64,000 nt of DNA, taken from NCBI GenBank assembly GCA_021234155.1, contig JAJEKV010000005.1, positions 4,652,952 through 4,716,951 on the forward strand, in the 5' to 3' direction. Below are positions 4,290-46,224 of this stretch, piece by piece (position 1 is the stretch's first letter; each line of letters starts with the position of its first letter). Made by a program: the position numbers and the translations under genes. The notes beneath the pieces are model-generated. The model made no database searches. It worked only from the letters and a program-made list of their open reading frames with translations, and was not told the DNA's origin. The stretch comes from Isoetes taiwanensis. Taxonomy: Eukaryota; Streptophyta; Lycopodiopsida; Isoetales; Isoetaceae.

Positions 4290-5200
4290 TCAAATAGCGG
4301 GATGCGAAGGTGGACTTTGGACTATCGAACCCCCCTTTTTTACAATTGATTGTCAGTTAGTATAGATGCAATGACAGTCCAGTTCTTGTAAACCACCACA
4401 GTTGCAACTAGATTATAATAAAGTGAGGCTTATGCCTAACTACTAATGAAGGAGCTTTTTGATATTTTATAACTTCCCATTCGAGAGCATAAAATAAAAA
4501 ATTTGTCACAGTGCTTTTGATAGCAGCTGAGAGATGCTTTAGAAAGAGATGATCAAGGCGGACTTCAACTTCCTCCTACTTTCCTCAAACTGCATGGTTT
4601 GATGAAGAAGGTAAAGAGCTTAAGAGATAAGTTAAACTGGTGCTTCACCATGTTCTCCGTGCACAAGCTATGAAGTGGTATAATGCTTTTCTCCAAAGAG
4701 CAAGATTTCATTAATTAGAGAAATTTCATTTTCTCGTTTGAGAACGAAATAGGTCGCGGTCATGTCAGCAAACTAAAAAATGGTTGTATGCAACCAGAAT
4801 GAAGCGTTAATAATTAGTAAATCAGCTTGAAAAATTTACAAGCGCCGAAAATCTCTTGTACAACTATAGCCTCTAGGTTCATAACATTAACTATGGGGTT
4901 CCAAAAGCATCACTCATGCTCCCAAAGATTGCCATGGCGATAGTTTTGACAAGAAAGCAAGGCAAAATGTAAAGAGTTTACTGCTTGCAATTACCTAATA
5001 TTAATCTAAAAAATAGACTCTTGTTCGAATAATCGCGATCGCGATCTTTTAGACAAATATATTCATTAAAATTCGCACACATCAGAAAGCATGTATTTTC
5101 AAAGAAGCATAATTACAAAAAAGGTAATCATGGCTTGACATTTTCACTGTGTTTCTTTCACAGACTCTACATCGACGCCAAGCTCCGCAGCTATTCATCT
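4290..5200. other. Unassigned DNA with one GATC-containing palindrome
   Basis: No coding region is recognised. A perfect dyad ATCGCGATCGCGAT lies at 5032-5045, the same kind of motif that forms an array at 9.43-9.75 kb. It lies just beyond the 3' end of the minus-strand ParB-methyltransferase gene. Confidence 0.45.
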
Positions 5201-5223
5201 AACGTGTTCCTTTCATGTGGCAA

Positions 5224-5938
5224 TTATCTGTGATGTGTCCATTTCTGTATATCTGTAGTATTTGGCACATCCACATCCATTGGGACATCTATCTCTTGCA
5301 CACGCCTTGACATCTGAGAACTATCCAACAATTCATCCTCCAAAGCCGTAGAGTATTTTGTAGAGCGAACCAACTTCTGTCTTTTTGGTGAATGATCGCC
5401 ATCTAGTCTACCACTTCCAGATGTGTCATCAGACATTCCCATGTATTCGAAACTATGAAGCGGCTTTTCTACAGAACCTACAGAACCTGTTATCACTAGC
5501 AGGATCTTCTCAAAATTTTTGTTCAGTGCCTCCAGCTTTTTGAACTGTGGATCGAACTCAGCAGTTGCCTTTTCTGTTTGTTCTAGCAGTGCCCTGGTTT
5601 CCTGTAACCTCTCTTCGAAACTTTTCTGATCCAGAGCATCCAATATTTGATCCATCTTGCTAAGATCTGTCTCCTGAGTTATTTTGATGTCTGGCATGTC
5701 TGAACTGTTTGGCTTATCTGGCATAGCATTTTCTTCTTCCTCTTCTTTGGCAGGCCTTGCCATTTTCTCTAGAGTTTCAAAGAAGGATCTGAGAAAATGG
5801 CATACCTTATCGTCATATTCAAAGGAAACACTGCGTTTTCCTTGCATCGGAGCAACCCTTGAAGCTGTGCCGGCCGAGAAAAAAATCAAGAACACAACCG
5901 TCCAGTGGAACCAGCTCCTTCACCATTGAAGAAAATTA
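5224..5938 (-). CDS. Last exon: methyltransferase SAM motif, coiled coil, basic tail
   Basis: The exon opens with the C-terminal signature of a permuted N6/N4 DNA methyltransferase: LDGCVLDFF in one frame, then SAGTASRVAPMQGKRSVSFE in the next, followed by YDDKVCHFLRSFF. This matches motif I (D.F.G.GT..R.A) and the acidic residue ending strand 2 in that family. The two frames are joined across a run of seven T (complement of 5879-5885), so one extra base explains the break. A glutamate-rich stretch, a predicted coiled coil (QKSFEERLQETRALLEQTEK) and a possible nuclear signal (SPKRQKL) follow. The ORF stops at 5224. Family identity is by motif, and no structure was compared. Confidence 0.6.
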
Positions 5939-6563
5939 TGCTATAGATCAAAAATATCTAGACAATTTAGTTTCAATCTAAGATCAAACAAATGCTCACA
6001 ACTTTGATTATTCAAAAGCCAAATATTTGATTCAAATGTCTTTATTGCTTATGAAATAACCTTAGGCTAAACCTTATACATGCTACAGTAAAATCATTGT
6101 AGCAGAGGTATTGACCGATCACTGTAGCAGTGTTGACTTCCTCTTCGATAGCCCAAGCATTATTTGAATCCGTCTTGTTACACCTGCAAGACACTGCAAA
6201 AATGCATTATACAATGTCAAATCCTTCTTCTGTATTTTAGATCAGGATCCGGCCGCTGTGGCGGGCCGATCGATCCAAAGGATCATCAATAAAGCAACTT
6301 TCCTTTTTTGAATAACGGTTCCCACCAATATGGGATATATCCCATAATAATTGAAGCCTTCGAATGACATGTTTTAACCTGAGTATATATATATGATCAA
6401 GGTTTCATATAGACTGTAATATATGATCAAGGTTTCATATAGACTCCAATCTCGATCATTAACCTTAGGTTAAATAACCTTGTACAAACATGATTTTGTC
6501 TAGATCATCTCTATATATCATGATTATAACATGATCAAACTCTACAACCATGTTGTAAATATA

Positions 6564-7300
6564 TTATGTCTTTGCCTGGCTCTTATGGACGAAGTCGCCC
6601 TCCATTGCTGCCCAAGAGAACTTGGGTTTACCTGTAAAATACTCTAAATATTTTTTCTTTGTTTTTATATCCACCTCATTGTCACCAGTTACTGGATATT
6701 TTGGAAGGGGCGTGCTTTTCGGTGCATTGGTCACCTGAGTCAGCCATAGTTCAAATTTCGGCTTCACAGGCAACACATGAGCCTCACTTCTGTTTATCGT
6801 GACATTGGTCACGTCCATGTCACGTAATATTGGAACGCCTTGATATTGTTTTTGCTCTCCCAACCTTGTTTTTCATAAGCCCCAAGGGAAACATGAGAAC
6901 TACCTTGAATCTGACTTTGACTGTACGTGCAGTTTGGCAAATGGGCGGATATGAGAAACATGACGATATGGTAAACTTTGGCTTTGGTCATGCCTGCAAT
7001 CCTGCTAAATAAATCTTGTATTTTTTAACTTTCCATAGCGTCGTGAAACTATGCATGTCAATAAAAATCATCGTGGCATTCTCAGATACCGGTGCAGAAA
7101 TAGGAATACCTGATTTGGTGCCATGGTGCACGATGCTCTTCTTCTCTTTATGGTCCCTTGCCTCTTCTGGCTTTATGATGGCGATAATGGCTTCCAAAAA
7201 AGCACTGGGGAGATTTCTTTGCACTGAATCTTTATTATAATTGGCTTTAATATAATCAAAATCTGTGTCAGCTATATCCAGCAATCGTTGTTCAGAAAGA
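6564..7300 (-). CDS. Methyltransferase central region, exons with altered motif IV
   Basis: Two or three short exon frames. The upstream one (to 7284) has SENATMIFIDMHSF, which aligns in position with the catalytic DPPY-type motif IV of N6 methyltransferases but reads D-M-H-S. The next frame (6991-6809) has VYHIVMFLISAHL and YEKQGWESKN, in the style of the 'vMf.s.......GF....W.K.g' segment that follows motif IV. The last frame ends FTGKPKFSWAAMEGDFVHKS. The catalytic replacement suggests loss of activity. It could also mean that I have misplaced the motif, since exon borders here are uncertain. Confidence 0.45.
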
Positions 7301-7369
7301 TCTGGAAAACATGTAGCTAACTCCTCAAAACTCCTGTATTGCTTCTCTGATATATAGTTGACGTAGGAT

Positions 7370-7727
7370 TATATTTCACGATGCATCAGTGACAACATTC
7401 TGATGTCCAGCGCCCTCTGTCGGCAATCAAAGCGCCCTGTATAACCGGACTGAACTTTCAAAAATACTTTGCCTTCGAGAATTTCATCCATCAGTTGGCT
7501 GACCTCGACATTATTCATTCCTCGAAGGTATCTTAGGAAAGTCTTGTTGAAGAACTCTTTAGAGGGCTTATCTGGTAGTTCCTCATGATCATCAGCCAGC
7601 TTTCGCGCTGCCCACTTGTAACAACAGCAACAAGCTTGGACCATGATTCTTCTTGCATGAAAAGGAATTGCTTTTCATCCTTGAGTTCTTTAACCTTCAA
7701 GGTCGTTGTAGCTATGTCGACAAAATC
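7370..7727 (-). CDS. Linker exon between ParB-like and methyltransferase parts
   Basis: The exon starts after a good acceptor (TTTGTTTACAG, ending at 7728) with DFVDIATTTLKVKELKDEKQ. It then shifts frame into KEFFNKTFLRYLRGMNNVEV and LMDEILEGKVF. An in-frame TAA follows MLSLMHREI, after which the reading continues as SYVNYISEKQYRSFEEL. I do not recognise a domain. The intron just upstream contains a dyad, GATCGCGACGACGATC, at 7749-7764. Confidence 0.4.
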
Positions 7728-7787
7728 CTGTAAACAAAAGCGGGTCAGGATCGCGACGACGATCTTCTATAGCTGAAAATAAAAACC

Positions 7788-8143
7788 TATCTTCCAAGCG
7801 GATGATACTGCAGTGCCTGTTGGGCCTTGTGGAGGGCAATCCATAAGCATTGTGTGCTGATTCCTTAATTGCTGAAGCTTTTCGATTAGTGGCTCCTTAT
7901 ATACTGTATCCGCTATAATGTCATTGCAATGTATGGATAACTGAATATACTCTTTATTGGAGAGATTTCCATTTAGCACCCGGCTTCTTCGCTTTGCATA
8001 AGCTTTAGCAAATTCCTGCCATTGCTCGACATTTTCCATCATAGAACAAAGAATTTCTGCAGCAAAAATACTGTGATTACCAGAAATAATATAAAATTTC
8101 TTGTTCAAGAGCTCCTCAGGGCGGGACCAAGTGATCAACTTCC
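7788..8143 (-). CDS. ParB/sulfiredoxin-like core exon
   Basis: The exon follows acceptor ...ACATCAATGCAG and reads KLITWSRPEELLNKKFY, then IISGNHSIFAAEILCSM. The 'fyIisGnHs..Aa' segment is the hallmark of ParB/Srx-fold proteins, in which the G-x-H/R loop binds nucleotide or phosphate. It is followed by AKAYAKRRSRVLNGNL and a helical stretch. The preceding exon supplies the strand-helix part of the same domain, so the fold is supported over a splice junction. It ends at about 7788 at a GT donor. Catalysis is unknown; eukaryotic ParB-like proteins are poorly characterised. Confidence 0.6.
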
Positions 8144-8219
8144 TGCATTGATGTCCCATCAATTAATAGGCATTATAAATAGGCAGTCTAATAGAGAGAA
8201 ATATGCAATAAAACTTACC

Positions 8220-8510
8220 TTGTCACTGGGTCAAATGGGACGACATCGGCAGGCGTGAGAACCTCCATTGGGCACCTTTTGAAACTCTTGATTAATGTCT
8301 GTACATGATCATTAGATCGAACCCTATGAGTTAGATTTGCTGGGGCTGTCTCACAATAAAAAATGCTGATCTTCTGAAACCAATTCACTCCCATAGGATA
8401 AAATCTTTTAAATTCTTCTAGCTTGGAGGCGGCCTATTCAACAAGCTTCTTTTCTTCATCTGGATTGAATTTTAATTCATCGGGCATACGTGAAACAGAT
8501 GGCCAAGTCA
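8220..8510 (-). CDS. ParB-like domain, N-terminal exon
   Basis: The frame reads MPDELKFNPDEEKKLVE, an in-frame TAG, AASKLEEFKRFYPMGVNWF, then NLTHRVRSNDHVQTLIKSF and EVLTPADVVPFDPVT. It ends at a strong donor (AAG|GTAAGT). 'R.N..VQ.LI.SF......P..VVP' is the usual start of a ParB-type domain, where the residues are listed and the output position is set before the G-x-H loop of the next exon. The TAG may be a mutation, or may mark an acceptor (GAATAG) for a shorter exon. Confidence 0.55.
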
Positions 8511-8597
8511 ACATGGAAGTCATAGCTATAGGGTTGGTGGACGAGGTGGGAGTAGACGAAGTAGAGGGCTCTGCCCAGTCTCTTCAGTGTTTAAGTT

Positions 8598-9397
8598 TTA
8601 AAGCTTAACCTTGAAGGTACTTATCTTACTTGGAAGAGGTGCTTCATGTATATCCGAGTCTTTCACTGGAAGAGGCATAAGCATATTTTGACCTGAGAGA
8701 TCGACAATGGCAGATCCGCCTGGATTTGTATTCTGTACAGGTTGAGATGACACTAAGGATTCTTTTGGAGTTGATGGTTTACCTGCAACAACCAATGAGA
8801 CCACATTTTTTTTCTTGGAAACTGCCTGCAACCAATTCATGTCCATCCGGGAAGGCAAATTGTTGTCTTTTGTAGCCTTCAATGCAATGGAAAGAGGTTT
8901 CTTATCAGCCAAAGGCCCTTCCTGCACATGCGTAAGCCAACAAGTATATCCCTATTGCATTTTATCCCAGACAAGCTCAACAAATCATAAGATGTCAGGT
9001 TCCAACCATATCCTTTAGCACTAGTAGGTACCCCCTTGCCACTAGCAGGCCTATTCGCCTTGCTTGCAGTTATGATAGACAGATCATAGACATACTCCAC
9101 AAATTGTAGCTGCTGTGTATCCTCCATGCTGCATATGATTGCATTATTTTTTGTGCCCACCCACATAGTGACTATTATGCCCATCTGTTCAAATTCTTCT
9201 AGGCCCTTTCGGTTCCTCAAGAAGAGACACAAGTCCTTCCAGCAGTCTCCTGTCACATGAGGTTTGGCCTGAGCTATTTCCATGCACCATTTTCGGCTTC
9301 TATCAGGAGTTACAATGCGCATGGGTTCCACGTTGGGGTCGCGAAAAAGCTCCAGTGCTACAAGTAGAATATGAAACTGATAAGTGACACCACTCAC
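8598..9397 (-). CDS. N-terminal region of the ParB-methyltransferase gene
   Basis: Two overlapping frames are coding-like. The first (9397-8950) has ALELFRDPNVEPMRIVTPD, WKDLCLFLRNRKGLEEF and a run of hydrophobic strands. The second (8927-8598) has MQEGPLADKKPLSIALKATK and proline/serine-rich sequence. They are joined by a TAG-containing segment (VWDKMQ-stop-GYTCWLTHVQ). I recognise no domain. The acceptor is either at about 9402 (TTTGCCAG) or 9361 (CTTGTAG). It shares strand, spacing and splice logic with the ParB exons, which is the reason for joining it. Confidence 0.4.
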
Positions 9398-9428
9398 TAC
9401 TCAAAGACCTGGCAAAGTGCACACAAGG

Positions 9429-9752
9429 AACGTGGCCGCAATCTTTATAAGTAGATAGACAAAAACATTATTAACAAGAATATGTTTGCAAGGATCGTGC
9501 CCGCGATCCTTGTGAGCAAATTACAGATACGATATACACATTAATGCTAAATATCGCAGCCGCGATCTGTATAGCAAGTAGAGATAAAGTGTTTAGGTTA
9601 ATGTACTCTAAAGGATCGCGGCCGCGATAGTTGTAAGCAATATATTAAAACTATACTGTATTTATTGGTGAAAAGAATCGCGATCGCGATTCTCACAAGC
9701 ATGAAGACTATAAAAATAAAGAAATACTGCTCGTGAACATCGCGGCCGCGAT
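9429..9752. repeat. Array of six GC-rich dyads, GATCGCGGCCGCGATC type
   Basis: Six near-perfect palindromes sit in AT-rich DNA with centres about 60-64 bp apart: 9429-9443, 9490-9511, 9552-9567, 9613-9628, 9675-9692 and 9739-9752. The clearest forms are GATCGCGGCCGCGAT and GAATCGCGATCGCGATTC. Spacer sequences differ. The array lies in the presumed first intron of the ParB-methyltransferase gene. Related dyads occur at 5032, 7749, 10762, 10916 and 11041. ATCGCGGCCGCGAT is also open to methylation on CG and, where GATC is complete, on adenine. Binding by the ParB-like protein is a hypothesis only. Confidence 0.75.
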
Positions 9753-9942
9753 CCAACGAGCATATAGCATGCTAAAAACAGGACAACTAATGTTAGAATA
9801 ACAACAGTGGTCGTGAAAAGCGAGGAAAATACCTTCTTTTAAGGTGGCCGAGCGAGACATGGAGGCGGTCGAAGGCGCTCGAAAAATTCTATAGGCGCTC
9901 GTGAATTGGATCGCGAAGGAGCTGAGATCTGGGATTTTCATG

Positions 9943-9950
9943 AATTTATA
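9943..9950 (-). promoter_or_regulatory. TATA-like box of the ParB-methyltransferase gene
   Basis: On the minus strand CTATAAAT stands about 85 bp upstream of ATG 9860 (MSRSATLKE), which is a plausible distance for a short 5' UTR. An in-frame ATG at 9941 lies too close to the box to be the start. The first exon would end at a GTATTT donor near 9831. Confidence 0.4.
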
Positions 9951-10159
9951 GAATGGGGGTCATTAATGGCCCGTCATAATCACGGCCAGAAAATTCATTT
10001 CCAGGGGGCGCAATAAATACCGAGGGCGCAATAAATTCCGACGGCGGATCTAGAATATTCTTAAAAATGCCAAAATCGACGTTTTTATTCTCTGCACGGA
10101 CGCCACCACTAAGTTCAAAATTCTGTGCCATGGGACCCAGGGAAGGAGAACAAAATAGT

Positions 10160-10285
10160 CATGGCATGCGAGTTTAAATGAGACAATGACAGTCGCAATA
10201 TGGCATGGGACGGGTTGCAGGACAACATAATACTCACGGCACGCAAGTTTAAATGAGACAGTGACAGTCACAATATGGCATAAAC
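10160..10285. repeat. 75-bp tandem duplication in the divergent promoter region
   Basis: AGTTTAAATGAGACA and its surroundings (CAGTGACAGTCACAATATGGCA type) occur twice, 75 bp apart (10171 and 10246). The stretch also holds GGCATGGGACGGG, which recurs at 62549-62561 in the equivalent region of the second element, together with a TGACxGTCA-like dyad in both. It lies between two divergent genes and is a candidate shared promoter. Confidence 0.5.
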
Positions 10286-10761
10286 GCCCCGCCGAAATTA
10301 CCTGAATTTGAAATTCAAACTCAATTCACCCAGCTACATGGCTACACCAGCCATTCGTTCAAATTGGACTCAGGAGGAGGCTTCTAAGGCGCTGAATAGA
10401 TCTTTGAAGGCGATCATCTAAATTGGAGGCATTTGAGGCGCTCATCTGGAAATGGAAGGTGATCTTGAATATTTGAAGACATTTTCCTGGTGTTTTGACT
10501 CCTGCATGCTCTAAAGAGTGGAATCAGGCAAGATATACTGTTAAAACTTTGTTTCAATTAAATTATAGGACATCTATACCATTTTAACTTCTGTTATATG
10601 AAATGAATGAATTAGACAGCAGAAGAGGCCCACATTTATATATTATATTCTCTGTAAAATAGTGTCTTGTCTGAAATGAATTTCACAACATAGTTATCAA
10701 CCTGGCAAACCTGTCGCAGCTTCAAACCCTGGCCAACTTCAAATCACTGATTGCATCCCGA

Positions 10762-11056
10762 ATGCGACAACGATCTTCGTCAGCAGTCAAGAAGTATAAA
10801 TAGTTAATATTAGAGAAAACTGATAAAATGTTGAAGCAAACTGATTTAATGATGAAGCAAATGGATACTAATTTAATGTCTATCGCTTGATCAAGGCTGC
10901 TCGTGTCCTCAGTTAGATTGCGACGACGATCTTCATCAGCTTTCAACAAGTATATCTTAGCATTGGAGCAAACATGTCTTAGCATTGGAGCAAACGTGAG
11001 CATTGGAGCAAACTTGTACAAACCTCTCATTCCTCAGCTAGATCGCGGCGGCGATC
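10762..11056. repeat. Three dyads of the GATCGCGNCGNCGATC type upstream of the transposase
   Basis: Sites at 10762-10776, 10916-10931 (GATTGCGACGACGATC) and 11041-11056 (GATCGCGGCGGCGATC) precede the transposase ATG at 11137. They match the array on the ParB-methyltransferase side. A short tandem repeat (TTAGCATTGGAGCAAAC, three copies) lies at about 10963-11015. An acceptor-like TTGTGTAATTCAAG precedes the ATG, so these may also be intronic. Confidence 0.6.
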
Positions 11057-11136
11057 TTGAACAGCACGAGCATTTAGTGCTTCGTATCATCACGACCGCA
11101 AATTCTAAGCGCACTATCGGCTTTGTGTAATTCAAG

Positions 11137-11223
11137 ATGGCTGAATCAAGGTCCATACTATTCAATGGTGTCAAAGTTGGGGAGGGCAAAGTATATGGCT
11201 TCAACAAACATCACAACTTGCCC
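11137..11223 (+). CDS. First exon part of transposase gene copy 1 (split by gypsy)
   Basis: ATG at 11137 opens MAESRSILFNGVKVGEGKVY and runs to NLP at 11223. The reading continues in the same frame as DGTVVVPMDKIV at 16149. A retrotransposon occupies the gap and the 7-bp target duplication CTTGCCC is present on both sides (11217-11223 and 16142-16148). The joined region resembles the DUF8039-like module that accompanies several plant transposases ('LPDG...P......LGE.VG.FI.WP'). Its function is unknown. Confidence 0.65.
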
Positions 11224-11800
11224 TGTGGAGTTCCTTGGCTATCGCATCACTCCACATGGAGTCTCTATGGACCCCGAAAAGGTTAGCACTGTTATGGAGT
11301 AGCAGACACCTTCATCCGTTCGCGATGTCCAGTGTTTCCTCGGGTTTGCCAATTTCTATCGGCGTTTCATCCGGGATTATTCGGAGATTGCTCTTCCTTT
11401 GACACGCCTCACGGTCAAGGACGTGCCATTTGAATGGACTGTGGAGGCAGAATCTGCTTTTGTTACCCTGAAGCATGCTTTCACCACGGCGCCAGTTCTT
11501 GCTCATGCAGATCCTTTGCGTCCATATGTTGTCGAAGCAGATGCTTCTGATTTTGCACTTGGTGGGATCCTGTCACAGGAGGGGGACGACCATGAATTGC
11601 ATCCAATCGCCTATCACTCACGAAAGTTTCAGGCTGCTGAAATCAACTATCCCATTTATGACAAGGAGTTGTTGGCGATAGTGGATTCTTTTCAGGAGTG
11701 GGAGACGTTTCTGGAGGGATCTCCTTATAAGGTCACGATCTACCTGAGATCAACGAAATCTCGAATATTTTCGATCCGCCGAGTGCTCAACCGTCGCCGC

Positions 11801-11966
11801 CTTGAGCCTTCTAGGCATCTGTCTTGTATTCCTGCTTGCCTTCGGGCTATTGTATTATTGATTCCTGTTCATATATCAGATTCTTTGCCGATCTTGGCGT
11901 ATTTCTTCCGTATTTCTTGCATATTTTCCACGTATTTTCCTTGTTTTTCGAAAGTAGGTTCATGAC
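11801..11966 (+). repeat. Gypsy terminal repeat, copy 1
   Basis: This sequence (CTTGAGCCTTCTAGGCATCT ... GTAGGTTCATGAC) is almost identical to 15973-16136. Only a few differences are visible, for example an AA insertion before GTAGGTT. It stands between pol and gag of the tandem element, where an LTR would be, but no clear TG...CA ends or primer-binding site are seen. Confidence 0.6.
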
Positions 11967-12482
11967 GGTTGAACCGGAATCCCTTTACCGTTCTTGCCCC
12001 GCTCCCGATCCTAAGCATTGTTTTGCTTTCGTATTTGGTGATTTTATATCTATGGAGGAGGTTCCGACTTTATTCTGGCCAGGTCCGGCGGCTTGTTCAA
12101 GTATGCCGGCGATTGCAGTTGGACAATAAAGAGCTTAAAGAACGTATTGCTTCACATGAATCTGCTTCTAGCTTCGGGATTGAGGCTATCGAGCCTAAGA
12201 TCAGCCGCCCGAGAGAAGTTTGACTGCACTTTCGGTCCAAGCTCAGTGGTTTTTGAATCGGATCGGGCTTGTGATTCACTCCATCCTCATAGATATTCCA
12301 CGGCTCAAGAACAAGTGGGGCTGATTGGTTCTCTTCTCCGCAGGGCCAGCTCTAAGTTGGTTTGCTCCTTTATTGGAGAAAGGAACCCCGAGTTGCAAGA
12401 TTTTGCTGCTTTCAACTGCGGAACTTCGAAGCATGCTTTGGAGACACCGATCGTCGTACAAGACGGCCGATCACAAAACTTT

Positions 12483-13151
12483 GCAACTTAAGGCAAGGCT
12501 CGCCCGGCTTGATATATGCATCGAAATTTCGTCAAATTGCGATGAATCGCACGGGATGATATTGCATTTCGAGATTGTTTCCGAAGGGGGTTACGAGAGG
12601 ATGTCAAAGATATGTTATTGTCTATGGAAGATCCATAGAGTTTGGAAGAAGCCATCAGATTTGCAGTTCGATGTGATAATCGGCTCTTCGAACGTAGGCA
12701 AGAGAGACGTAGTCAGGTCTTTCCAATTACACAAGCATCTGTAGCTCGCCTTCCGGTCTCATCTGTAGAATCTGGCGGATCCGGACCCGAGCCTATGCGG
12801 ATTGATCGGGCGGTTCGAGGACCCTTATCTGCGCCGGAAGCAGCGTCGGAGAGAGGCTAATCTTTGCTTCTACTGTGGAGGAGCCGGTCATATCGCTCGT
12901 GGATGCCCCGTGAAGCTTCAATCGGTCGAAAAACTTCAGGGGGCGGTCCGGTAGTAGGAGTCTCTCGTCGGCCGGCCGCCTTTTCTCGAACTCCTTCCAC
13001 ATTTCTGACCGGGTTTATTCCATCGGATAAGGTCGACAAGGCATTCTTCATCCCTATATCATTGAAATCGGAAGTTGGAGAATTACAAGTGTTGGCGCAA
13101 CTTGATTGTGGTGCAAATGCTTGCTTTATGGATAGTCGTTACGCCCGGTAA
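12483..13151 (+). pseudogene. Gypsy gag and protease region
   Basis: Gag-like sequence with EEAIRFAVRCDNRLFERRQE is followed by a CCHC zinc knuckle (CFYCGGAGHIARGCP, about 12867-12911, in a different frame). The protease segment LAQLDCGANACFMDS then follows at about 13093-13132, where the usual D-S/T-G active site reads D-C-G. Three frames are needed to read it, so it is not functional. It belongs to the gypsy element whose RT lies at 14.8-16.0 kb. Confidence 0.6.
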
Positions 13152-14021
13152 ACGCCATCATCCCTAAAGCAAGGTTGAGCATCCTGCCTCTGTTGAAGTG
13201 ATTGATGGGCGGAGATCTCCTCAGTGCGATCCACGAATGTCTTGCACCTCTTCAGTTTTGTTCGAGGGAGTTTCTTGTAGTATTTCCTTCAATCTCATTG
13301 CTAGCCCTCATCGCCCGATAGTCTTGGAGTGCCGCCGGCTCGAGAGCTACATAACCCGCAGATTGATTGGCGTACTAGATCATTTCGATTTGTGGGTTCT
13401 AGCTCTAGTTCGGTTCCTCTGCCGGTCGGTCTCTACACCAACATCGACTTCGATCCGTGTAGTATCGTGGGCCCCCGACGCGCCCGTCCCTAATTTGTTC
13501 CATGTTACGATTAAGCCTCTTGCCTCTGCTCCGGTTCATGCCTAGATTACGATCATATTCTTGATGGCGTCCGGCTCCAGCTCCGGTTTACGCTCCTGCT
13601 CCGGTTCTTGCTCCGAGTCCACCATTCTGCTCCGGTTCTTGATCCGGTCCACTGTTCTGCTCCGTTCTTGATCCGATTCATGCTCCAATTGCTCCCGCTC
13701 CGTTCATTTCACCCTCATGTTCCTGCTCCTGCTTTTGTAGAGGCTTCTTCATGTCCTCAGTTTCGTATCTCGAAGATTTCTCTTCGCGAGTTCGATCAAT
13801 CTAGAAGGCAAGATCCAAGTTCAGTATTTGCAATCCAGGTTCGCCCGTCGGCTAGCTCGACACCATCGAAGCCTGCTCCAATGCTCCCAGATAAATATGG
13901 CGATTTCTCTGATGTGTTTGACAAAGTCAAGGCCAGTAAACTCCCAGAGCATCGTCCATATGATTGTCCTATTGATTTGCAGCCGGGGACCACGCCGCCA
14001 TATGGTCCGATATATGGTCTA
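13152..14021 (+). pseudogene. Gypsy protease/RT linker
   Basis: Proline/serine-rich decayed coding DNA, with the RT leader LPDKYGDFSDVFDKVKA, LPEHRPYDCPIDL and PPYGPIYGL at 13880-14021. This is the normal segment just before gypsy RT. It is cut by the 805-bp MITE and resumes in the same frame after 14834 as SPAELKVLRDYI. Confidence 0.6.
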
Positions 14022-14826
14022 CAGGGAAAAAATTAAGCATGCTATATATTTTTCCACAAAAAATGGTTTGGCTATTTTTCAAAATTTTACAGTACTCTAT
14101 GATATACATTTGGCTAAAGTTATTATTACCATTACATTTATATGTACTTGGACTTGGCGAAACTTTTGAATTAAGTACTTGGCTATTTTTTTAACTGGAA
14201 AAAGCAAAAAATATAAATTTTGAAGCTTTAGATATATGTACTACAATTATAAATAATAATCAACGATCAAGACATATACAATAATATTAAAAAACTTTTA
14301 ACAGAAGCTCACAACATAGCTTATAATATCCATGATCTGAACAATATTCAATGCAATGACACCTTCTAGATATGGTGATCAAATTGCACTTATATCTAAC
14401 CCCTGAGGGAAGATATTATGCAACCAACTCGGGCATCTAGAGAAATATTGGCCATCTCTTACAATTCCTTTTTGAAGATGCATATATGATATATGTAATA
14501 GAAATGCATAGTTTAAAAAACTACTATCACTGATGATGGTAGGTGGAGATGTGTAAAAGTCTACAATAGGAATTCATTTTTGTTTGGTTATTAATGATTT
14601 AATATGTACTTATTGTAATATAAAGAAAGGCTAATCCCTTTTTCTTTAAGGAAAAGGGGAAAAATAGTTTGGCTAATCCTAAAAAAATAATGGAGTATTT
14701 GTTTTAGCTATGGCTATTTTTTATTTTTTTAAAAGAAATCTCCCTTCTTAAAGTTCGCCGCAAAAATTGTCTAAACCCCCTAAAAAATCGCCATTTGGCT
14801 ATTAATAGCCACTAATTTTTTCCATG
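14022..14826 (+). mobile_element. 805-bp hAT-type MITE, copy 1
   Basis: The ends are CAGGGAAAAAATTA and, inverted, CATGGAAAAAATTA. The flanking 8-bp duplication ATGGTCTA (14014-14021 and 14827-14834) is perfect. Eight-base duplications with CA.GG ends are characteristic of hAT elements. The interior is AT-rich and non-coding. It interrupts the gypsy pol frame exactly. A second copy of the same length lies at 37146-37950. Confidence 0.9.
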
Positions 14827-14846
14827 ATGGTCTATCTCCCGCTGAG

Positions 14847-15977
14847 TTGAAGGTTTTGCGGGATTATATTGAAGAGAATTTAGCCACTGGCTTCATTCGA
14901 CATTCTCAGTCCCCTGCTGGAGCGCCTATCTTCTTCGTCAAAAAGAAGGATGGTTCGCTGCGTCTGGTCGTGGATTATCGTGGCCTCAATAAAATCACAG
15001 TGCCAAATCGGTATCCGCTTCCTCTGATTCCAGAGTTGTTGGAACGACTTCAAGGTGCGCATTATTTTACGAAGATTGATCTTCGGGGTGCCTACAATCT
15101 TATTCGGATCCGGGAGGGTGATGAGTGGAAAACAGCTTTTCGTACTCGGTATGGCCATTTCGAGTACACAGTTATGCCGTTTGGACTTACCAATGCCCCG
15201 GCAGTATTCCAGCATATGGCCAATGATGTTTTTCGAGAGTTCTTAGATACTTTTGTTATCATCTATCTGGATGATATTCTTGTTTATTCTAGGACTCTCG
15301 ACGAACATGAGAGGCATGTTCGACAGGTCCTTCAGAAACTTCGTGAGCATGGGTTATATGCCAAACTTGAGAAGTGTCAGTTCGAGCAGGATAATGTGGA
15401 GTTCCTTGGCTATCGCATCACTCCACATGGAGTCTCTATGGACCCCGAAAAGGTTAGCACTGTTATGGAGTGGCAAACACCTTCATCCGTTCGCGATGTT
15501 CAGTGTTTCCTCGGGTTTGCCAATTTCTATCGGCATTTCATCCGGGATTATTCGGAGATTGCTCTTCCTTTGACATGCCTCACGGTCAAGGATGTGCCAT
15601 TTGAATGGATTGTGGAGGCGGAATCTACTTTTGTTACCCTGAAGCATGCTTTCACCACGGCGCCAGTTCTTGCTCATGCAGATCCTTTGCGTCCATATGT
15701 TGTCGAAGCAGATGCTTCTGATTTTGCACTTGGTGGGATCCTGTCACAAGAGGGGGACGACCATGAATTGCATCCAATCGCCTATCACTCACGAAAGTTT
15801 CAGGCTGCTGAAATCAACTATCCCATTTATGACAAGGAGTTGTTGGCGATAGTGGATTCTTTCGAGGAGTGGAGACGTTTCCTGGAGGGATCTCCTTATA
15901 AGGTCACAGTCTACACAGATCACCGAAATCTCGAATATTTTCAGTCTGCTCGAGTGCTCAACCGTCGCCAGTCTTGA
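14847..15977 (+). CDS. Gypsy reverse transcriptase and RNase H
   Basis: An intact 376-residue frame. RT motifs are in order: FFVKKKDGSLRLVVDYRGLN (residues 29-48), PFGLTNAPAVFQ (111-122), catalytic YLDD (140-143), FLGYRITPHG, then CFLGFANFYRHFI. RNase H follows with VVEADASDFALGGILSQ and VYTDHRNLEYFQ. It ends abruptly after ARVLNRRQS, where the terminal repeat begins, so the end of RNase H and the whole integrase are absent. The true frame starts upstream of the MITE (GLSPAELK). The Met given is simply the first after the insertion. Confidence 0.85.
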   Translation: MKVLRDYIEENLATGFIRHSQSPAGAPIFFVKKKDGSLRLVVDYRGLNKITVPNRYPLPLIPELLERLQGAHYFTKIDLRGAYNLIRIREGDEWKTAFRTRYGHFEYTVMPFGLTNAPAVFQHMANDVFREFLDTFVIIYLDDILVYSRTLDEHERHVRQVLQKLREHGLYAKLEKCQFEQDNVEFLGYRITPHGVSMDPEKVSTVMEWQTPSSVRDVQCFLGFANFYRHFIRDYSEIALPLTCLTVKDVPFEWIVEAESTFVTLKHAFTTAPVLAHADPLRPYVVEADASDFALGGILSQEGDDHELHPIAYHSRKFQAAEINYPIYDKELLAIVDSFEEWRRFLEGSPYKVTVYTDHRNLEYFQSARVLNRRQS

Positions 15978-16136
15978 GCCTTCTAGGCATCTGTCTTGTA
16001 TTTCTGCTTGCCTTCGGGCTATTGTATTATTGATTCCTGTTCATATATCAGATTCTTTGCCGATCTTGGCGTATTTCTTCCGTATTTCTTGCATATTTTC
16101 CACGTATTTTCCTTGTTTTTCGAGTAGGTTCATGAC
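15973..16136 (+). repeat. Gypsy terminal repeat, copy 2
   Basis: Near-identical partner of 11801-11966. A few bases beyond it the transposase coding sequence of the host element resumes. Confidence 0.6.
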
Positions 16137-16141
16137 ATGCC

Positions 16142-19056
16142 CTTGCCCGACGGCACCGTGGTAGTGCCTATGGATAAGATTGTGGATGGAAGCATACCTT
16201 TGCCATATCCGAAAGCCGAGATTTCAACACTCGGAGAGTCGGTCGGGAGTTTCATTTTGTGGCCTGCATGTTGTATAGCGTTGCTTGCGCCCGAATGTGA
16301 CATATTGACTCCGCCAGTGCAATTAAAAGAAATTAACTGGCAGGTAGTCGAAGACGAGAAAGGTCCATTCAAGCAAAACTGTGGTGATAAAGGCATTTCA
16401 AGAGATGAGCTGGTGGAGAGAAATTGCATGCTGATGCATGACTACTGCTATATGCCTTATGCACACGGGGTGATTATCTTCACTGATTCTAACCAGGCAG
16501 TTGGTGACGTAAGGTTAGGGGAAGACTTCCTGGCTGCCACCATGATGAAGATATGTCCTATGCCAGAGAAGCCGTCTATGAGATGCCAAGCTTGTGCTGA
16601 AATGCCACAACTGCACGACTTGGTCAGGTGGTCGAATGCCTTGGTGTGACAATATCATATTATCGACTCTCATAAAGGTTGTGAAAGAACAGAACATCAA
16701 GGCAGTACCCTATGCAATGCAAGTGAAAGTTGCTAAATCTCAAAAGAGGTCTTATAGAATGGTGAATCGAACACCGCGAACACCTGCTACCCCAGGTAAG
16801 GTTGATAAGAAGATCATTGCGGCTTCTATTCTAGACTTCAAATCCACGATTTACTGCATTCGCAGATGTTATGTCACTTTCTCTACCTGCGAGATCAAGT
16901 GCATGCGACGTTTCTTTTAGAACATGAGTGCTGCGGATAGGACCACCTTTGCTTACAACATGCTTGACCTTTGCTCCGAAAATGAGCAGGTCCGGAAGGT
17001 GATGCTAAATAACAAGCAAGTATGCTTGAAAGCAAGGCACAAAGCTCACGACATTCCAATGTCAACTTTATATAAGTGGCGTAAACTTTTTCTTGTTGGT
17101 CATAGAGTTGCTGAACATGGTAATCCGGGCTCAAAGAAACCAAGGTCGCACACTCTAGCAGGAAATGCCCTACTGTCTATGTACATAGATGAGAATGCAG
17201 AGACGATGTCCCACAGGTCGAAAATCACTAATGAAGGTGTGAGAGCGAATGCGATGAGACTTCCTTCTGTCCTAACAAAGAAGGACATTCTCCATGAGGT
17301 GGATGCTAGTGTTATGGAGATGATAGACAAGCACATCTCCCCATCTTCCTTCTTAGGCGGGTAGAAGTTACACCACCCAGAGGTTGCAATTGCAAAGAGG
17401 ATAGTTTTCTCCAAGTGCAATAGTTGTGTTGTAATAAAAGAGAAAATGGCTAAGACAAGAGATTCAATAGAGAGAAGAGAATTGCAGATCGAAAGGAAGG
17501 CACACATGACAGCCCAGATTTCTTGTAGGAGCTTGTATTGGTCGTGGAGAGCTTTATCGCATCGTGCTCTGAGCAAGCTCTGACGATCATCCATGATAAG
17601 ATGGATCAGAACAAGACAATGGTACCTAGATTGGAGAAGTTAGCCAAATCAGTGTGGAGAGGAGAACGCTTGAAAGTAAGTGTGACTGGTGCACTGATGC
17701 ATGGCCACGGTATTGGCGCTCTGGGCCATTTTTCACTAGATTTATGGAAGGATGATTCTAATTTTCATATTGGTTCCTTGAACCACACACTCAAACCCTG
17801 GAGGATGATGCTTCGAGAGACAACTGGGGCTATTTAAGAGAAGTTGAGCACCCTGATTGTGCATGGGGAGCAGCAGTCCTCAACATGGCATTGAGGGCTA
17901 AGAAGGTCAATAGCACTGGACAAGAATTCATGGCCCTTCCTAGTGCTCCAGTTCACCCCAAACACCTACCAGAAGGCTATATTTAAAACTAGACAATTGC
18001 TCTGGCCAGAACAAGAACATATATCTCTTCTTCTACCTTTCTTATCTTGTCTGGCTGGGGGTTTTTGACCAGATACAGCTTAGATTCATGATGGTCGGCC
18101 ACACCCATGATGACATTAATGTACTGTTCGAAAATTACTCAATATTATTGTGTAGGTCGGATCACAGAGGTTTCTGATTGGAAGTCATTTGTGAAAGGAT
18201 ACATTCTAGACAAGAAGGATCACTTGGTCTGCTCTTCAAATTTTGCATAAAAGGTGGTTGGCCACTCATGTGTTACAAGATGAGGCCAGGGCATCGAGAA
18301 TGGCTCCTGAACAATGGAATAAGAATGTGGAAGGCAGGTGCTGATGGTATGCCAATAATACCTACTGGAGCACCTAAGGCTGTGAAGCCATACGATAGCC
18401 TCAAAGATATGGGTGCCTTACGATCGTCCATTGCGAAGTACATGATGCATTGGGCAAATACATCTCATGGTGGTGTGAACTCATGGTCTAATGCCTACAT
18501 AAATGAGGTTATTGACTACTGGTCGATTCTGATACATGCACTTGGACAGGTCCCACCCGGGACCCAGGAAATTAGAGACTTCTGGTGTCACACTAAACAG
18601 TCCGTGCTAATGGAGCCTGAGTCAGTAATGCTCGACGAGTAAACACGTCCGCATTATGTCGGGCCTGCAAAGGATAAACCACAGAACCCAGTTGAAATAT
18701 TCGACCCATACCAGGATGTCAAGAAAGATATGCTCTTGCTCATTAGACCAGGAGACTCATCTCCTGCATGGATGGCCTTTGCTGAAGAGGACCCTATACA
18801 AGACCCAACTCTTCCCCACTACGAAGAGGTGTTTGTGTCTTGGTGGGAGCCGATAGCAAGAAAAGGTACCACTTATGCACAATAATATAGGGACTGCTGG
18901 CATAAAAGGTGGAAACTAAATCCGAACGACAGGCCTCGTTATCAGCATCTCAAAACCATAGACTATGGTTGGTCAGTCAAGGACAAGCCTCAGATGGTAG
19001 TGATATCTGCAAGTGTAGCGGCTCAGTTACAGGAATTACTGGCCAAAGAGGCCTAA
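16142..19056 (+). pseudogene. Transposase gene, copy 1 (DUF7869-like DDE type)
   Basis: Begins with the accessory module (DGTVVVPM, LGESVGSFILWP, and a CxxC segment MRCQACAEMPQLHDLVRW to 16649). The transposase follows with RRFFLNMSAADRTTFAYNM-like sequence, IPMSTLYKWRKLFLVGHRVA and EHGNPGSKKP at about 17052-17142. A zinc-type FSKCNSC lies near 17409-17429. Possible catalytic stretches are IHDKMDQNKTMVPRL (about 17587-17631), KLDNCSGQNKNIYLFFYLSY (about 17985-18046) and MVGHTHDDINVLF (about 18090-18130). The C-terminus reads WPLMCYKMRPGHREWL, MWKAGADGMPI and WKLNPNDRPRYQHLKTIDYG, ending at 19056. The pattern matches a transposase-like family with an LDN..GQNKN and GHTH.DI signature. Frames shift several times, so it is broken or has unrecognised introns. 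I relied on memory of the family. Confidence 0.65.
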
Positions 19057-19242
19057 GAGGATGGAGAAGAAACTTGAGTCTTCAAGGTATATTAAAGTAG
19101 TTCTTATTCATTACTCTCTGCATTTTTCAGATTAATACAAGTGCTCTTATACATTGCTATATCTTATATGCCAGAACATCACTACATTATATATCGCTGA
19201 ATAGGTGATACATACACCTAAAGCACAGTTACATCACAGCAG

Positions 19243-19560
19243 TTACACGCGGTGACCATGCAGGCATATGGAGTTAATCTCGTAGGCATTGCGCTCATGA
19301 AGCCATACGAGATGAATAACAACACGGTGGTAACCGGGGGAATCCATCTGGCGACGATTAGCTATGGACTGCAAGTATGGATCAAGCCGGATGCCTCTAT
19401 GAATGCATTTAACCATATCATTGTAAGTCATGGAGCAAGTGATGGTCTCGATATCAGTAGCAGGAGCAGGCAACCATGCTCTATCGGTAGCAGATCCTGA
19501 GTCCCGAGACATTATAAATGAATGCCTTCTGCACTCAAGTGCGGATATATTTATACCCAT
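19243..19560 (-). CDS. Small ORF with a VIHLxW...YEINSI motif, copy 1
   Basis: I do not recognise this protein family. The likely start is ATG 19512 (MSRDSGSATDRAW), behind a TATA-like GGGTATAAATATA at about 19546-19558. The first in-frame ATG (19560) overlaps that box. The conserved core is ETITCSMTYNDMVKCIHRGI, then VVIHLVWLHERNAYEINSIC. Related cores occur at 56.6-57.8 kb, also downstream of and convergent to a transposase of the same type. That repeat association is the main reason to believe it is a gene. No membrane segment or known catalytic motif is visible. Confidence 0.55.
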   Translation of the reverse strand: MGINISALECRRHSFIMSRDSGSATDRAWLPAPATDIETITCSMTYNDMVKCIHRGIRLDPYLQSIANRRQMDSPGYHRVVIHLVWLHERNAYEINSICLHGHRV

Positions 19561-19574
19561 GAATAATAATGATG

Positions 19575-19670
19575 TATGTATCTACTATCAATAATAGTGG
19601 TGTATGTGTCTACTATCAATAATAATGGTGTATGTATCTACTATCAATAATAGTGGCATATGTATCAATA
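19575..19670. repeat. 28-bp tandem repeat upstream of the small ORF
   Basis: CTACTATCAATAAT recurs at 19582, 19610 and 19638 within a 28-bp unit (GTGTATGTRTCTACTATCAATAATAGTG type). It lies directly upstream of the TATA-like box of the minus-strand ORF. A different but CAATAATT-rich repeat lies in the same position before the copies at 56.8-57.0 kb. Confidence 0.7.
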
Positions 19671-19679
19671 CTCGTGCTT

Positions 19680-20330
19680 TAGAAGTAAGAGAAAATACTC
19701 TGGTTGACTAGATTAACTGAGGTCAAAATTCTGAAAATCGCGTTATTCTCTTCAATTAATGAGACCATGTTTCAAGGAAAGAATGCTCAGTACATGGTGT
19801 AGCATCAAGGGCCCTAAATTGCCATACCCAATGTCTGGGGTTCAATATCTCGTTTTGAAAGTGGCTATGCATCAGTGTTATAAAATACTTATAATACAAT
19901 ACGCATTAAGTATTTTTTAAGTATTCTAGACATTTTCTATAAGTGCTTAGAATACTTATTTATAATGAGTATCATATCTATTTCTATGAGTATATCACCT
20001 ACACACTTAGGCCTATATGGCCAGTACACTTGGATACATATACATTTACGAGCATAGGCCTATAGGCTAGCCAATTTGGATAAGCCTTTATGCTTATACA
20101 CATGATTGTATAGGAGTATAGGCTATACAATACTCTTAGGAGTATAGGCCTATGCCATATGCCATAGTAATGAGGACAAAACCCTATGACATATTAGTTA
20201 GGAAAAAACCCTATGCCATAGTAATTAGAGGAGAAAAAATTGGGGGTTAAAAAAATGGCAGTTCAAAAACGTAGTTGCCTCAACTACAGCTCACGCTGCT
20301 GCCCATACATCTGGTGAGACTGGAAAAGGT
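19680..20330. other. AT-rich DNA with TAGGCCTATA-type palindromes
   Basis: No gene seen. Several short palindromes of the TAGGCCTAT type (near 20008, 20056 and 20134) and a repeat CCCTATGCCATAGTAAT near 20190-20225. This may be the outer edge of the first large element, but I could not define an end. Confidence 0.35.
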
Positions 20331-29900: not shown

Positions 29901-30432
29901 TTGGACTTAGGTCAACTATATCCTGAAATGAAGAAGCTATGGCAAATGATTTTAGTGATTCCGGCCTCTACAGTGGAATGTGAAAGGGGTTTCTCAAAAT
30001 TGAATAGCATCAAAGACGATGATAGAAGTAGATTGAGCTTCAAAAGCTTAGATTTGTTAATGTTCATGTCATTAAATGGTCCGAAGAACATGGAAGAAGT
30101 TGATTGGTCATCCATTTACAAGGAATGGATGAATGCAAAGGAGAGGCGTATTGGGGAATTGTAGAAAGTTGTTTGGTATTTGATCTTACAGTTAACTTTA
30201 CCTTGTCTTGTTTAGTACTCTAATCTTTTCTTGAACTCATGCATATAAGCTTTGTTTTCTATAAATTGTGCTTTAATGTTATTTTATTATGAATTTTGTG
30301 GTAAATAAGGGCAGTTTACATTGTGCCATGGAATAAAAAGGGCTGATAAAAGTTTAACCTTCCCAAAAAAGGGCAACTCAAAATATGCCCTTAGAAAAAA
30401 AAGTAGGGTCTACCCTTATAAGTTGAACCCTG
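26978..30432 (+). mobile_element. Complete hAT DNA transposon, 3.46 kb
   Basis: The flanking 8-bp duplication GTACAAAT is perfect (26970-26977 and 30433-30440). The terminal inverted repeats are CAATGATCAACTT at the left and CAGGGTTCAACTT (inverse of the right end), 10 of 13 positions identical. The interior carries a hAT transposase on the plus strand with presumed 5' UTR introns before 27940. Eight-base duplications and CA...TG ends are known hAT features. Frameshifts in the gene make it non-autonomous now. Confidence 0.88.
27940..30164 (+). pseudogene. hAT transposase (ZNF862/DUF4371-like), two frameshifts
   Basis: The N-terminus MAPRLGRPKNDK is followed by a basic linker and a C2H2-like finger (MKCSWCAEC ... 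VHEKSRSHKK, about residues 104-146). RNase H-like catalytic landmarks are FSLLIDESTDCT and MIGIATDGASVMVG, followed by SVHCIAHREALV. The C-terminal dimerisation region has VIPASTVECERGFSKLNSIK and RSRLSFKSLDLLMFMSL. The three frames (27940-28821, 28799-29899 and 29874-30164) are colinear with one protein and overlap only at the breaks, so two small indels near 28.80 and 29.89 kb disrupt it. The rest is well preserved, pointing to fairly recent loss. Confidence 0.85.
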
Positions 30433-37145: not shown

Positions 37146-37950
37146 CAGGGAAAAAATTAAGCATGCTATATATTTTTCCACAAAAAATGGTTTGGCTATT
37201 TTTCAAAATTTTACAGTACTCTATGATATACATTTGGCTAAAGTTATTATTACCATTACATTTATATGTACTTGGACTTGGCGAAACTTTTGAATTAAGT
37301 ACTTGGCTATTTTTTTAACTGGAAAAAGCAAAAAATATAAATTTTGAAGCTTTAGATATATGTACTACAATTATAAATAATAATCAACGATCAAGACATA
37401 TACAATAATATTAAAAAACTTTTAACAGAAGCTCACAACATAGCTTATAATATCCATGATCTGAACAATATTCAATGCAATGACACCTTCTAGATATGGT
37501 GATCAAATTGCACTTATATCTAACCCCTGAGGGAAGATGTTATGCAACCAACTCGGGCATCTAGAGAAATATTGGCCATCTCTTACAATTCCTTTTTGAA
37601 GATGCATATATGATATATGTAATAGAAATGCATAGTTTGAAAAACTACTATCACTGATGATGGTAGGTGGAGATGTGTAAAAGTCTACAATAGGAATTCA
37701 TTTTTGTTTGGTTATTAATGATTTAATATGTACTTATTGTAATATAAAGAAAGGCTAATCCCTTTTTCTTTAAGGAAAAGGGGAAAAATAGTTTGGCTAA
37801 TCCTAAAAAAATAATGGAGTATTTGTTTTAGCTATGGCTATTTTTTATTTTTTTAAAAGAAATCTCCCTTCTTAAAGTTCGCCGCAAAAATTGTCTAAAC
37901 CCCCTAAAAAATCGCCATTTGGCTATTAATAGCCACTAATTTTTTCCATG
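37146..37950 (+). mobile_element. 805-bp hAT-type MITE, copy 2
   Basis: Same length and ends as copy 1 at 14022. The flanking 8-mers are TTCGTGAT (37138-37145) and TTCCTGAT (37951-37958), one mismatch. By eye I found only two base differences from copy 1 (in GAAGATRTTATGC and CATAGTTTRAAAAAC), so both probably moved recently. Confidence 0.9.
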
Positions 37951-41960: not shown

Positions 41961-42286
41961 GGCGTGATCAAGTTGTTGTAGGGACTGCAACTTGCTGTAG
42001 CAAGGTTTTATGAGCAAGTGCTTGCTGAAGTGAGCACTCCATTGAATAAGAAATGTGATAAGCAATGAAGCTGCATGGACCAGTCCCATAACTGAATTGT
42101 TCTACATTTAGCTTGCATTGCGTATAAAGCTTTCGTTCCACAAACAATCCTCTTATCTATGGCTGTATTCCATCTGTAATTTTCTATTATCTCAATTCCC
42201 AAATATTTATAGCTATGAACATGTTCAATGGGCTTACCTTTAATCTGAAAAACATGTTTTTTCCTCGTGCCAAACATCATACTTTT

Positions 42287-43387: not shown

Positions 43388-43496
43388 CCTAGGTCATAAG
43401 GTTTTTAAGGAGTGCGTCTATTATGTAAACATTTCGTCTCCTAGACCGTAGGGTCTTTAAGAGATCATGAATAATCAATCCAATTCAATTCAATTT

Positions 43497-46220: not shown

Positions 46221-46224
46221 TATT

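Follow-up and report, generated by a model that had tools for sequence, protein, structure and literature searches.

A repeated DNA transposon of Isoetes taiwanensis that pairs a putative DUF7869 transposase gene with a candidate ParB-like/methyltransferase-like gene

The pairing of a methyltransferase-like gene with a transposase gene is already known, and in the accessible parts of the literature reports of a prokaryote-type DNA-binding or DNA-methylating protein encoded beside a transposase come mainly from algae. In the brown alga Ectocarpus, the 21.5-kb DNA transposon Sola1-1_Ec32 carries a ParB-like plus N4/N6-methyltransferase gene (1104 aa, both domains reported) opposite its transposase, and self-methylation of the element's DNA has been proposed for the product (PMC12477816, available sections). 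The same sections name similar transposon-borne proteins in green and red algae, citing Iyer 2011 and, for Bostrychia, Petroll 2025, and mention, for red algae, giant EnSpm elements that carry accessory genes. Dinoflagellate and charophyte retrotransposons have acquired cytosine methyltransferases, according to the part of PMC5890265 available to us.

We analysed a 64,000-nucleotide stretch (the window) of I. taiwanensis contig JAJEKV010000005.1 (Table 1). Positions 4698–19772 are one DNA transposon, of ~9.5 kb once two later insertions are subtracted, and of this we are nearly certain. Our best explanation as a whole is that the stretch is a single copy, now broken, of a cut-and-paste DNA transposon that is repeated in this genome; to it we assign a probability of about 0.8. 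A preliminary description had proposed one mobile element uniting the minus-strand gene, the transposase and a small ORF; this is borne out by the terminal repeats, the target duplication and the shared gene order, but the ends it gave, 5032 and 19560, are replaced by those of the terminal repeats.

Table 1. Positions of the element's features and of a diverged relative in the window
Feature	Position	Strand	Remark
Target duplication, left copy CAAA	4694–4697		partner CAAG at 19773–19776
Left terminal inverted repeat	4698–4724	+	1/27 mismatch; sole plus-strand match in window
Dyad ATCGCGATCGCGAT near left end	5032–5045		
Minus gene (ParB-like / N6_N4-methyltransferase-like), multi-exon	5194–9360	-	disrupted
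Motif-I-like stretch, VLDFFSAGTASRVALMQGKRSVSFEYD in majority sequence	5809–5901	-	within PF01555 match, profile positions 137–217
Later insertion within minus gene	~5929–6546		missing from six fetched copies covering the site
IFIDMHSF at expected DPPY site	7045–7068	-	
ParB-like stretch, two exons, HRVRSNDHVQTLIKSFKRCPMEVLTPADVVP ... FYIISGNHSIFAAEIL	8049–8328	-	motif by eye
Five dyads, ~60-bp spacing, beside minus gene	9494–9752		at 9494, 9553, 9615, 9677, 9739
Three dyads beside transposase gene	10760–11055		at 10760, 10916, 11042
Transposase gene, start	11137–11216	+	divergent from minus gene
Later gypsy-type retroelement insertion	~11217–16141	+	missing from seven fetched copies covering the site
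Transposase gene, remainder with DUF7869	16142–19074	+	disrupted in this copy
Small convergent ORF, ~90–112 aa	19246–19581	-	region in 5/10 fetched copies
Right terminal inverted repeat	19746–19772	-	4/27 mismatches; sole plus-strand match of right-end motif in window
Target duplication, right copy CAAG	19773–19776		
Diverged second element	56559–64000	-	minus-gene homologue cut by window end

The unit is bounded by one pair of imperfect 27-bp terminal inverted repeats placed around both genes. Each repeat was found once in the window with up to 6 mismatches allowed, and 8 of the 27 positions differ between the family's left motif and the complement of the right end in this copy. At the five loci with both ends, the flanking target duplications (CAAA/CAAG, TATA/TATA, TTTT/TTTT, TATG/TATG and TAGT/TAAT) are 4 bp long, mostly A+T, and agree at 18 of 20 bases, a value attained by 1 of 120 re-pairings in a control. 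The element thus has both the terminal inverted repeats and the fixed-length target duplication of a TIR transposon. A 4-bp duplication is also characteristic of the Sola1 superfamily, and the length here is the same. One of the five loci, C1028, sits in a T run.

The minus gene is repeated genome-wide (at least 45 matches including the window, 40 scored of 626 candidates), mostly at 83–94% identity, as is the left end (at least 47 matches, 40 scored of 699 candidates). The left end is kept in four of ten fetched minus-gene copies and in all ten copies chosen by a left-end search, nine with at most 1/23 mismatches and one with 5. Gene co-occurrence was counted starting from minus-gene copies. 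In the ten fetched at ~20 kb, the transposase lies in the same order and orientation in eight, two of them partial, and the small ORF is present in five; at 19 further copies, 701 bp were probed where the transposase was predicted to lie, and it turned up in six, always oriented as expected, while the other 13 gave no match. Counted in this way, the result goes against the independent distribution that the preliminary description had named as a refutation. The 13 negative copies may be truncated, deleted or interrupted. Together with the two fetched copies that have no transposase, they indicate either that copies are often damaged in these ways or that the minus gene also travels alone.

Copies without the transposase would also fit two independent elements lying side by side, associated through nesting only. 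So would c1072 and c908, whose similarity to the window ends at 10244 and 10495, within the 9.9–11.1 kb interval, and a diverged minus gene (c1060/L014) with no transposase in the 6.8 kb upstream examined. That upstream stretch contains a LINE-like frame. In a third copy, c387, similarity ends already at 9337; in c908 it returns at 17606, marking an internal deletion, and the right terminal repeat was not found in c1072, c908 or c387. However, seven of the ten fetched copies align through 9.9–11.1 kb with no boundary and with unchanged order, a single terminal-repeat pair with a 4-bp duplication encloses both genes, and a diverged second copy keeps the divergent order. An element end, which the preliminary description had named as a possible refutation, was not seen in this interval of the window, where, at up to 6 mismatches, the terminal repeats occur only at 4698 and 19746–19772. 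We reject chance nesting on the strength of the shared order, terminal repeats and target duplication, and regard it as extremely improbable.

The window copy of the transposon is damaged. The retroelement has CTTGCCC at each of its borders (11217–16141), and both large genes are disrupted by stops and frame changes. Removal of the gypsy insertion alone had been expected to leave a unit of ~9.5 kb; the size holds, but the second insertion, inside the minus gene, must also come out. As originally described, the plus-strand gene is divergent from the minus gene and resumes past the retroelement, and its predicted DUF7869 domain (PF25273) was matched at E=1.6e-25 in the joined model. In another copy, c1025, this gene has an uninterrupted stretch of 652 aa. 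Our literature search found no paper naming 'DUF7869' together with 'transposase'; we infer that DUF7869 is the catalytic domain, and the protein would cut at the terminal repeats. The small ORF is convergent behind the transposase, as had been claimed, and a relative of it (57026–57245, E=1.2e-8) is likewise convergent behind a second transposase copy.

This second copy belongs to an element at ~56.6–64 kb, first taken for a partial copy. It has the same divergent order, but is a diverged relative whose minus gene leaves the window. Small ORFs lie at 56.6–57.3 kb, transposase pieces at 58050–60.1 kb on the minus strand with weak ones (E 0.4–0.8) up to 61.4 kb, and its own dyads at 61.6–63.4 kb. 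Divergent beyond these dyads is the first exon of its minus gene (~63563–63740, plus strand), which scores 66, as against 49 at the next-best place and a mean of 32.4 (sd 4.3, max 57) in 200 shuffles, none of which reached 66.

Comparison of subfamilies bears on whether the element captured the minus gene as a fragment of a host gene and carries it as passive cargo, as in a Pack-MULE. The window copy is broken, and a gene with no assigned function next to a transposase is typical of cargo. Yet the minus gene is found in two subfamilies with 43% protein identity, where codon-position differences of 109/93/170 over 246 codons show a third-position excess (p=1.7e-6), and it recurs in the diverged second copy, which argues that it has long been kept and selected. 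For the transposase, the differences are 34/33/54 over 86 codons (p=0.03). Judged by these counts, both genes are constrained as protein between subfamilies. Within the close subfamily, 12 of 15 stretches gave p>0.05; in the remaining three the excess falls on position 3 (mt3 and mt4) or on position 2 (mt8). The excess between subfamilies leads us to reject passive cargo as the main reading, and we consider it quite unlikely.

The minus protein would consist of a ParB-like region, a permuted beta-class N4/N6-methyltransferase-like region and a coiled-coil-like tail. The multi-exon gene claimed at the outset is present at ~5.2–9.4 kb (approximate pieces 9360–8955, 8948–8221, 8145–7795, 7740–6564 and 5904–5194), and long stretches are open in other copies (L019:6080-7597, 506 aa; L027:4042-5187, 382 aa); its two domain assignments fared less well. 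The expected ParB/Srx domain had no HMM match in Pfam, PHROGs or NCBIfam. A GxxR-type box is a feature of this domain, and in the candidate box picked out by eye, FYIISGNHSIFAA, the arginine is not retained. On the motif, we put a ParB-like domain at somewhat better than even odds.

A methyltransferase-like fold is probable. N6_N4_Mtase was the top family, as predicted, but stayed below its gathering score: with the majority protein as query it ranks first among 24,736 Pfam families (E=0.0055 and 0.0086), with PF01555 at 17.1 bits for E=0.0055, below the gathering score of 26.7. It is also the top family for the c908 ORF (E=0.061) and the second for the c1072 ORF (E=0.018). PF01555 had no match in six of seven further pieces scanned, including three of the L014 relative, or in the window's own exons and joined model, the joined models being without the motif-I exon. 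M.RsrI accounts for two of four distinct PDB matches, at E=1.2. The AlphaFold model reached a pTM of 0.26, no Foldseek match had E<=0.001, and comparison of the joined proteins with solved structures, phage and IMG/VR sequences yielded nothing informative. In the permuted methyltransferase class the S-adenosylmethionine-binding motif I is C-terminal. A candidate for it, VLDFFSAGTASRV...SVSFEYD, falls within the sub-threshold PF01555 match, and this motif-I-like stretch is retained in two subfamilies. The DPPY catalytic tetrapeptide was not seen in the window, c908, the majority sequence or the L014 relative. Because its position reads IFIDM[R/H]SF, and LIFIDIRG in the relative, catalysis may have been lost or changed; S-adenosylmethionine may still be bound.

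The two divergent genes have a common CpG-rich promoter, flanked on both sides by the same GC-rich dyads, as first noted. The dyad ATCGCGNNCGCGAT (up to 2 mismatches) occurs eight times in the window, as against 0.51 expected, and none of 100 shuffles attained eight. The dyads are internal to the element (5032, 7750, 9494–9752 and 10760–11055), with none found at its right end, and copies covering the group of five have it in the same places with some bases substituted. Variability in dyads is not lower than at other intergenic bases (0.070 vs 0.065, p=0.87). CpGs are kept at 243/291 dyad cells vs 535/735 outside, cells from related copies being non-independent.

The minus protein would bind these dyads, most likely controlling the promoter or protecting it against host CpG silencing; this pairing of dyad binding with an anti-silencing role is a tentative proposal, which we consider less likely than not. 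More specifically, a pseudo-methyltransferase, its catalytic motif lost and cofactor site kept, might use its ParB-like region to coat the CpG-rich dyads, shield the promoter from host CpG methylation and diversify with the dyads in each subfamily, a version that we hold to be doubtful. The minus gene might instead encode an active N4-cytosine/N6-adenine methyltransferase marking its own element, for example at GATC within dyads. The identical gene pairing published for Ectocarpus (PMC12477816, available sections), the motif-I-like stretch in two subfamilies and the 17 GATC sites vs 6.3 expected in the 1.74-kb intergenic region are consistent with such an enzyme. But DPPY was not seen in any of the four sequences inspected, and the dyads themselves account for part of the GATC excess, with 6 sites vs 8.4 expected in the second element of the window and 10 vs 7.8 in the c1060 stretch. 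We think active methylation rather unlikely.

A many-copy family with a stable gene-pair order across diverged subfamilies is a large natural sample, suited to asking if proteins of this kind act on the transposon that encodes them by marking, binding or protecting it. Since DPPY is missing in two subfamilies, the published idea of self-methylation becomes directly testable.

Some DNA transposons of plants encode regulatory proteins of their own, such as Spm TnpA and VANC, and the minus protein would resemble these as a second element protein acting on the element's own repeated sites, a likeness in manner of working only. Sola1-1_Ec32, in the available part of its description, shares with the present element a ParB-like plus methyltransferase gene on the strand opposite the transposase; it differs in its length of 21.5 kb, as against ~9.5 kb here, where ParB similarity is a motif alone and DPPY was not seen. 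The transposons of green and red algae encode proteins of similar type, likened here through the naming in the accessible sections of PMC12477816. In the dinoflagellate and charophyte systems, as far as the available part of their description goes, a transposable element likewise bears its own DNA-methyltransferase gene, but there a retrotransposon carries a C5-cytosine enzyme, whereas here a DNA transposon carries an N4/N6-type region.

The element is a mobile unit in which two genes are kept together. The gene layout proposed in the preliminary description is present in the window: we found the divergent gene pair with its dyads, the small ORF convergent to the transposase gene, and the retroelement insertion. 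Two stretches of the window copy are missing from all fetched copies that cover those sites and are therefore later insertions; the element measures ∼9.53 kb without them, and copy c1078a elsewhere in the genome measures 9.55 kb. Both large genes of the window copy are broken, the transposase gene by several stops and the ParB-like/N6_N4-methyltransferase-like gene on the minus strand (the minus gene) by stops and frame changes.

Features of the window by position
Feature	Position	Remarks
Element	4698–19772	DNA transposon
Left end	4698–4724	AAGCAAGATTTCATTAATTAGAGAAAT, 1 mismatch
Minus gene	∼5.2–9.4 kb (−)	
Stops, minus gene	8434–8436, 7369–7371 (−)	
Frame changes, minus gene	near 8950 and 7620	
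First insertion	∼5929–6546	missing in all six fetched copies covering the site
Dyads	9400–11137	ATCGCGNNCGCGAT
Second insertion	∼11217–16141	missing in all seven fetched copies covering the site
Right end	19746–19772	complement begins AAGCATGGTTTCGTTAATTGGAGAGAA, 4 mismatches
805-bp segment	14022–14826 (within retroelement insertion), 37146–37950	99.75% identity; apparently a recent duplication or transposition
Transposase frame	27940–30161 (+)	hAT-like by eye; C17orf113-type zinc finger (PF25431, E=1.3e-17)
Retroelement frames	41367–46735 (+)	Copia-type, by eye from ORF list
Multi-exon gene	54662–56240 (+)	VTRLALAGVPAEVGMQVTGHNTLDGYRK near its end is tyrosine-recombinase-like, and by eye the gene looks Crypton-like; weak Phage_integrase match (E=0.091)
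Second element, small-ORF-like frames	56559–57900	two, perhaps three
Second element, small ORFs	57.0 kb; 56.6–56.8 kb	E=1.2e-8; E about 0.01
Second element, leader (∼94 bp)	56949–57039, 57514–57605	duplicated at 82%
Second element, transposase	58050–60.1 kb	collinear pieces; weak further pieces (E 0.4–0.8) to 61.4 kb
Second element, dyads	61400–63560	AGCGC..GCGCT types
Second element, minus-gene first exon	within 62.9–64 kb	

The assembly containing the window (1.66 Gb) holds at least 45 matches to the minus-gene DNA at 8000–9000, the window included (40 scored of 626 candidates), and at least 47 to the left end at 4700–5700 (40 scored of 699). We fetched ten copies of ∼20 kb each, taking the eleven places that come next to the window in the match list and passing over one partial match. 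By blastn, the transposase follows the minus gene in the same order in eight of these, including c908 and c952, where it is only partial, and was not found after it in c1072 and c387; the small-ORF region is present in five. As to a possible element end at 9.9–11.1 kb, the alignment is unbroken through this interval in seven of the ten copies, but similarity drops off inside it in c1072 (at 10244) and c908 (at 10495, returning at 17606, an internal deletion). In c387 similarity ends at 9337; the right terminal repeat was looked for in these three copies and found in none. The continuous unit of both genes that had been claimed is real. A 701-bp probe was placed at the predicted transposase distance in 20 further listed copies, one of which ran past the contig end; it matched in 6 of the remaining 19, always in the expected orientation. 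The 13 copies lacking a match at the predicted spot may have been truncated, deleted in part or interrupted by other insertions, or may be copies of the minus gene that carry no transposase.

Each end motif occurs once in the window with up to six mismatches allowed. Sola transposons make 4-bp target duplications. The five loci obtained with both ends show 4-bp duplications, CAAA/CAAG, TATA/TATA, TTTT/TTTT, TATG/TATG and TAGT/TAAT, agreeing at 18 of 20 bases (1 of 120 re-pairings was as good); TTTT/TTTT falls within a run of Ts, at a locus whose right end is like the left type. Of 10 right-end probes, only 2 included a right end.

In the second window element, the match to the first exon of the minus gene has a frame-tolerant alignment score of 66; elsewhere in the window, on either strand and with the minus gene itself excluded, the highest score is 49, and none of 200 shuffled queries scored as high as 66 (mean 32.4, sd 4.3, maximum 57); the initial tblastn signal was weak (E=0.015). 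The match is in the expected place, divergent and past that copy's own dyads. The small gene of this element may have been duplicated. A third minus gene, diverged (43% identity over 247 aa), adjoins copy c1060 at L014:5567–9285. Dyads of the TCGCGGCCGCGA type precede it and a terminal repeat of the left type, with 2 mismatches, follows it; 6.8 kb of upstream sequence showed no transposase. Differences at codon positions 1/2/3 number 109/93/170 between the c908 and L014 minus genes (246 codons, p=1.7e-6) and 34/33/54 between the transposase and that of the second window copy (86 codons, p=0.03), indicating that both genes were kept as proteins; inside the close subfamily this test has little power.

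The domain names in the preliminary description were half-supported. DUF7869 holds for the joined transposase model (Pfam, E=1.6e-25). This domain is very common in the genome (at least 150 matches scored of 9902 first-look candidates); eight fetched matches, 26–34% identical to the element's transposase, belong to families other than its own, and we found no paper in the open-licence literature treating DUF7869 and transposase together. The methyltransferase stays sub-threshold, all PF01555 matches of the minus gene falling under the gathering score. The majority protein has N6_N4_Mtase (PF01555) as its best Pfam family, with E=0.0055 when the region is scanned and 0.0086 with the longer protein. 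The same family ranks first for the c908 ORF (E=0.061) and second for the c1072 ORF (E=0.018); it gave no match in six of seven minus-gene pieces, including three from L014, nor in window exons or joined models, the latter without the motif-I exon. Because the family had been named beforehand in the preliminary description, a single-family E of ∼2e-7 would be fair, not yet corrected for the number of versions scanned. M.RsrI, a beta-class enzyme, accounts for two of the four distinct PDB hits (E=1.2), and the motif-I-like stretch reads VLDFFSAGTASRVALMQGKRSVSFEYD. The main alternative for the minus protein, active methylation, is weakened because DPPY is missing: its place reads IFIDMRSF, or IFIDMHSF in the window and LIFIDIRG in the relative. 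ParB found no HMM match in Pfam, PHROGs or NCBIfam (the latter two with the window's joined protein only); we take FYIISGNHSIFAAEIL to be like a ParB box minus its arginine. An AlphaFold model (19-row alignment) reached pTM 0.26 and gave no Foldseek match at E≤0.001.

Dyads matching ATCGCGNNCGCGAT with at most two mismatches occur eight times in the window versus 0.51 expected, a number reached in 0 of 100 shuffles. They flank both genes and also occur close to the left end and within an intron; these places are common to the copies covering them, with substitutions. Dyad bases vary no less than the rest of the intergenic sequence (0.070 versus 0.065), but their CpGs are better kept (243/291 versus 535/735 in the remaining non-coding sequence; p=0.00026, with cells that are not independent). 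CpG relative to expectation is 1.08 in the intergenic region versus 0.47 at 24–50 kb of the window, consistent with a promoter that is spared CpG decay. The second element has the same layout with a different dyad sequence, so the protein may change along with its putative binding site. We propose that the DUF7869 protein would move the element and that the minus protein would bind the dyads and regulate or shield the shared promoter.

An excerpt of PMC9033089 lists Sola1 for Physcomitrella. Among the matches listed, titles and abstract openings of open-licence papers yielded no ParB–methyltransferase transposon outside algae. From algae this kind of element is already known: Ectocarpus Sola1-1 has a ParB-like and N4/N6-methyltransferase gene on the strand opposite to its transposase (PMC12477816).
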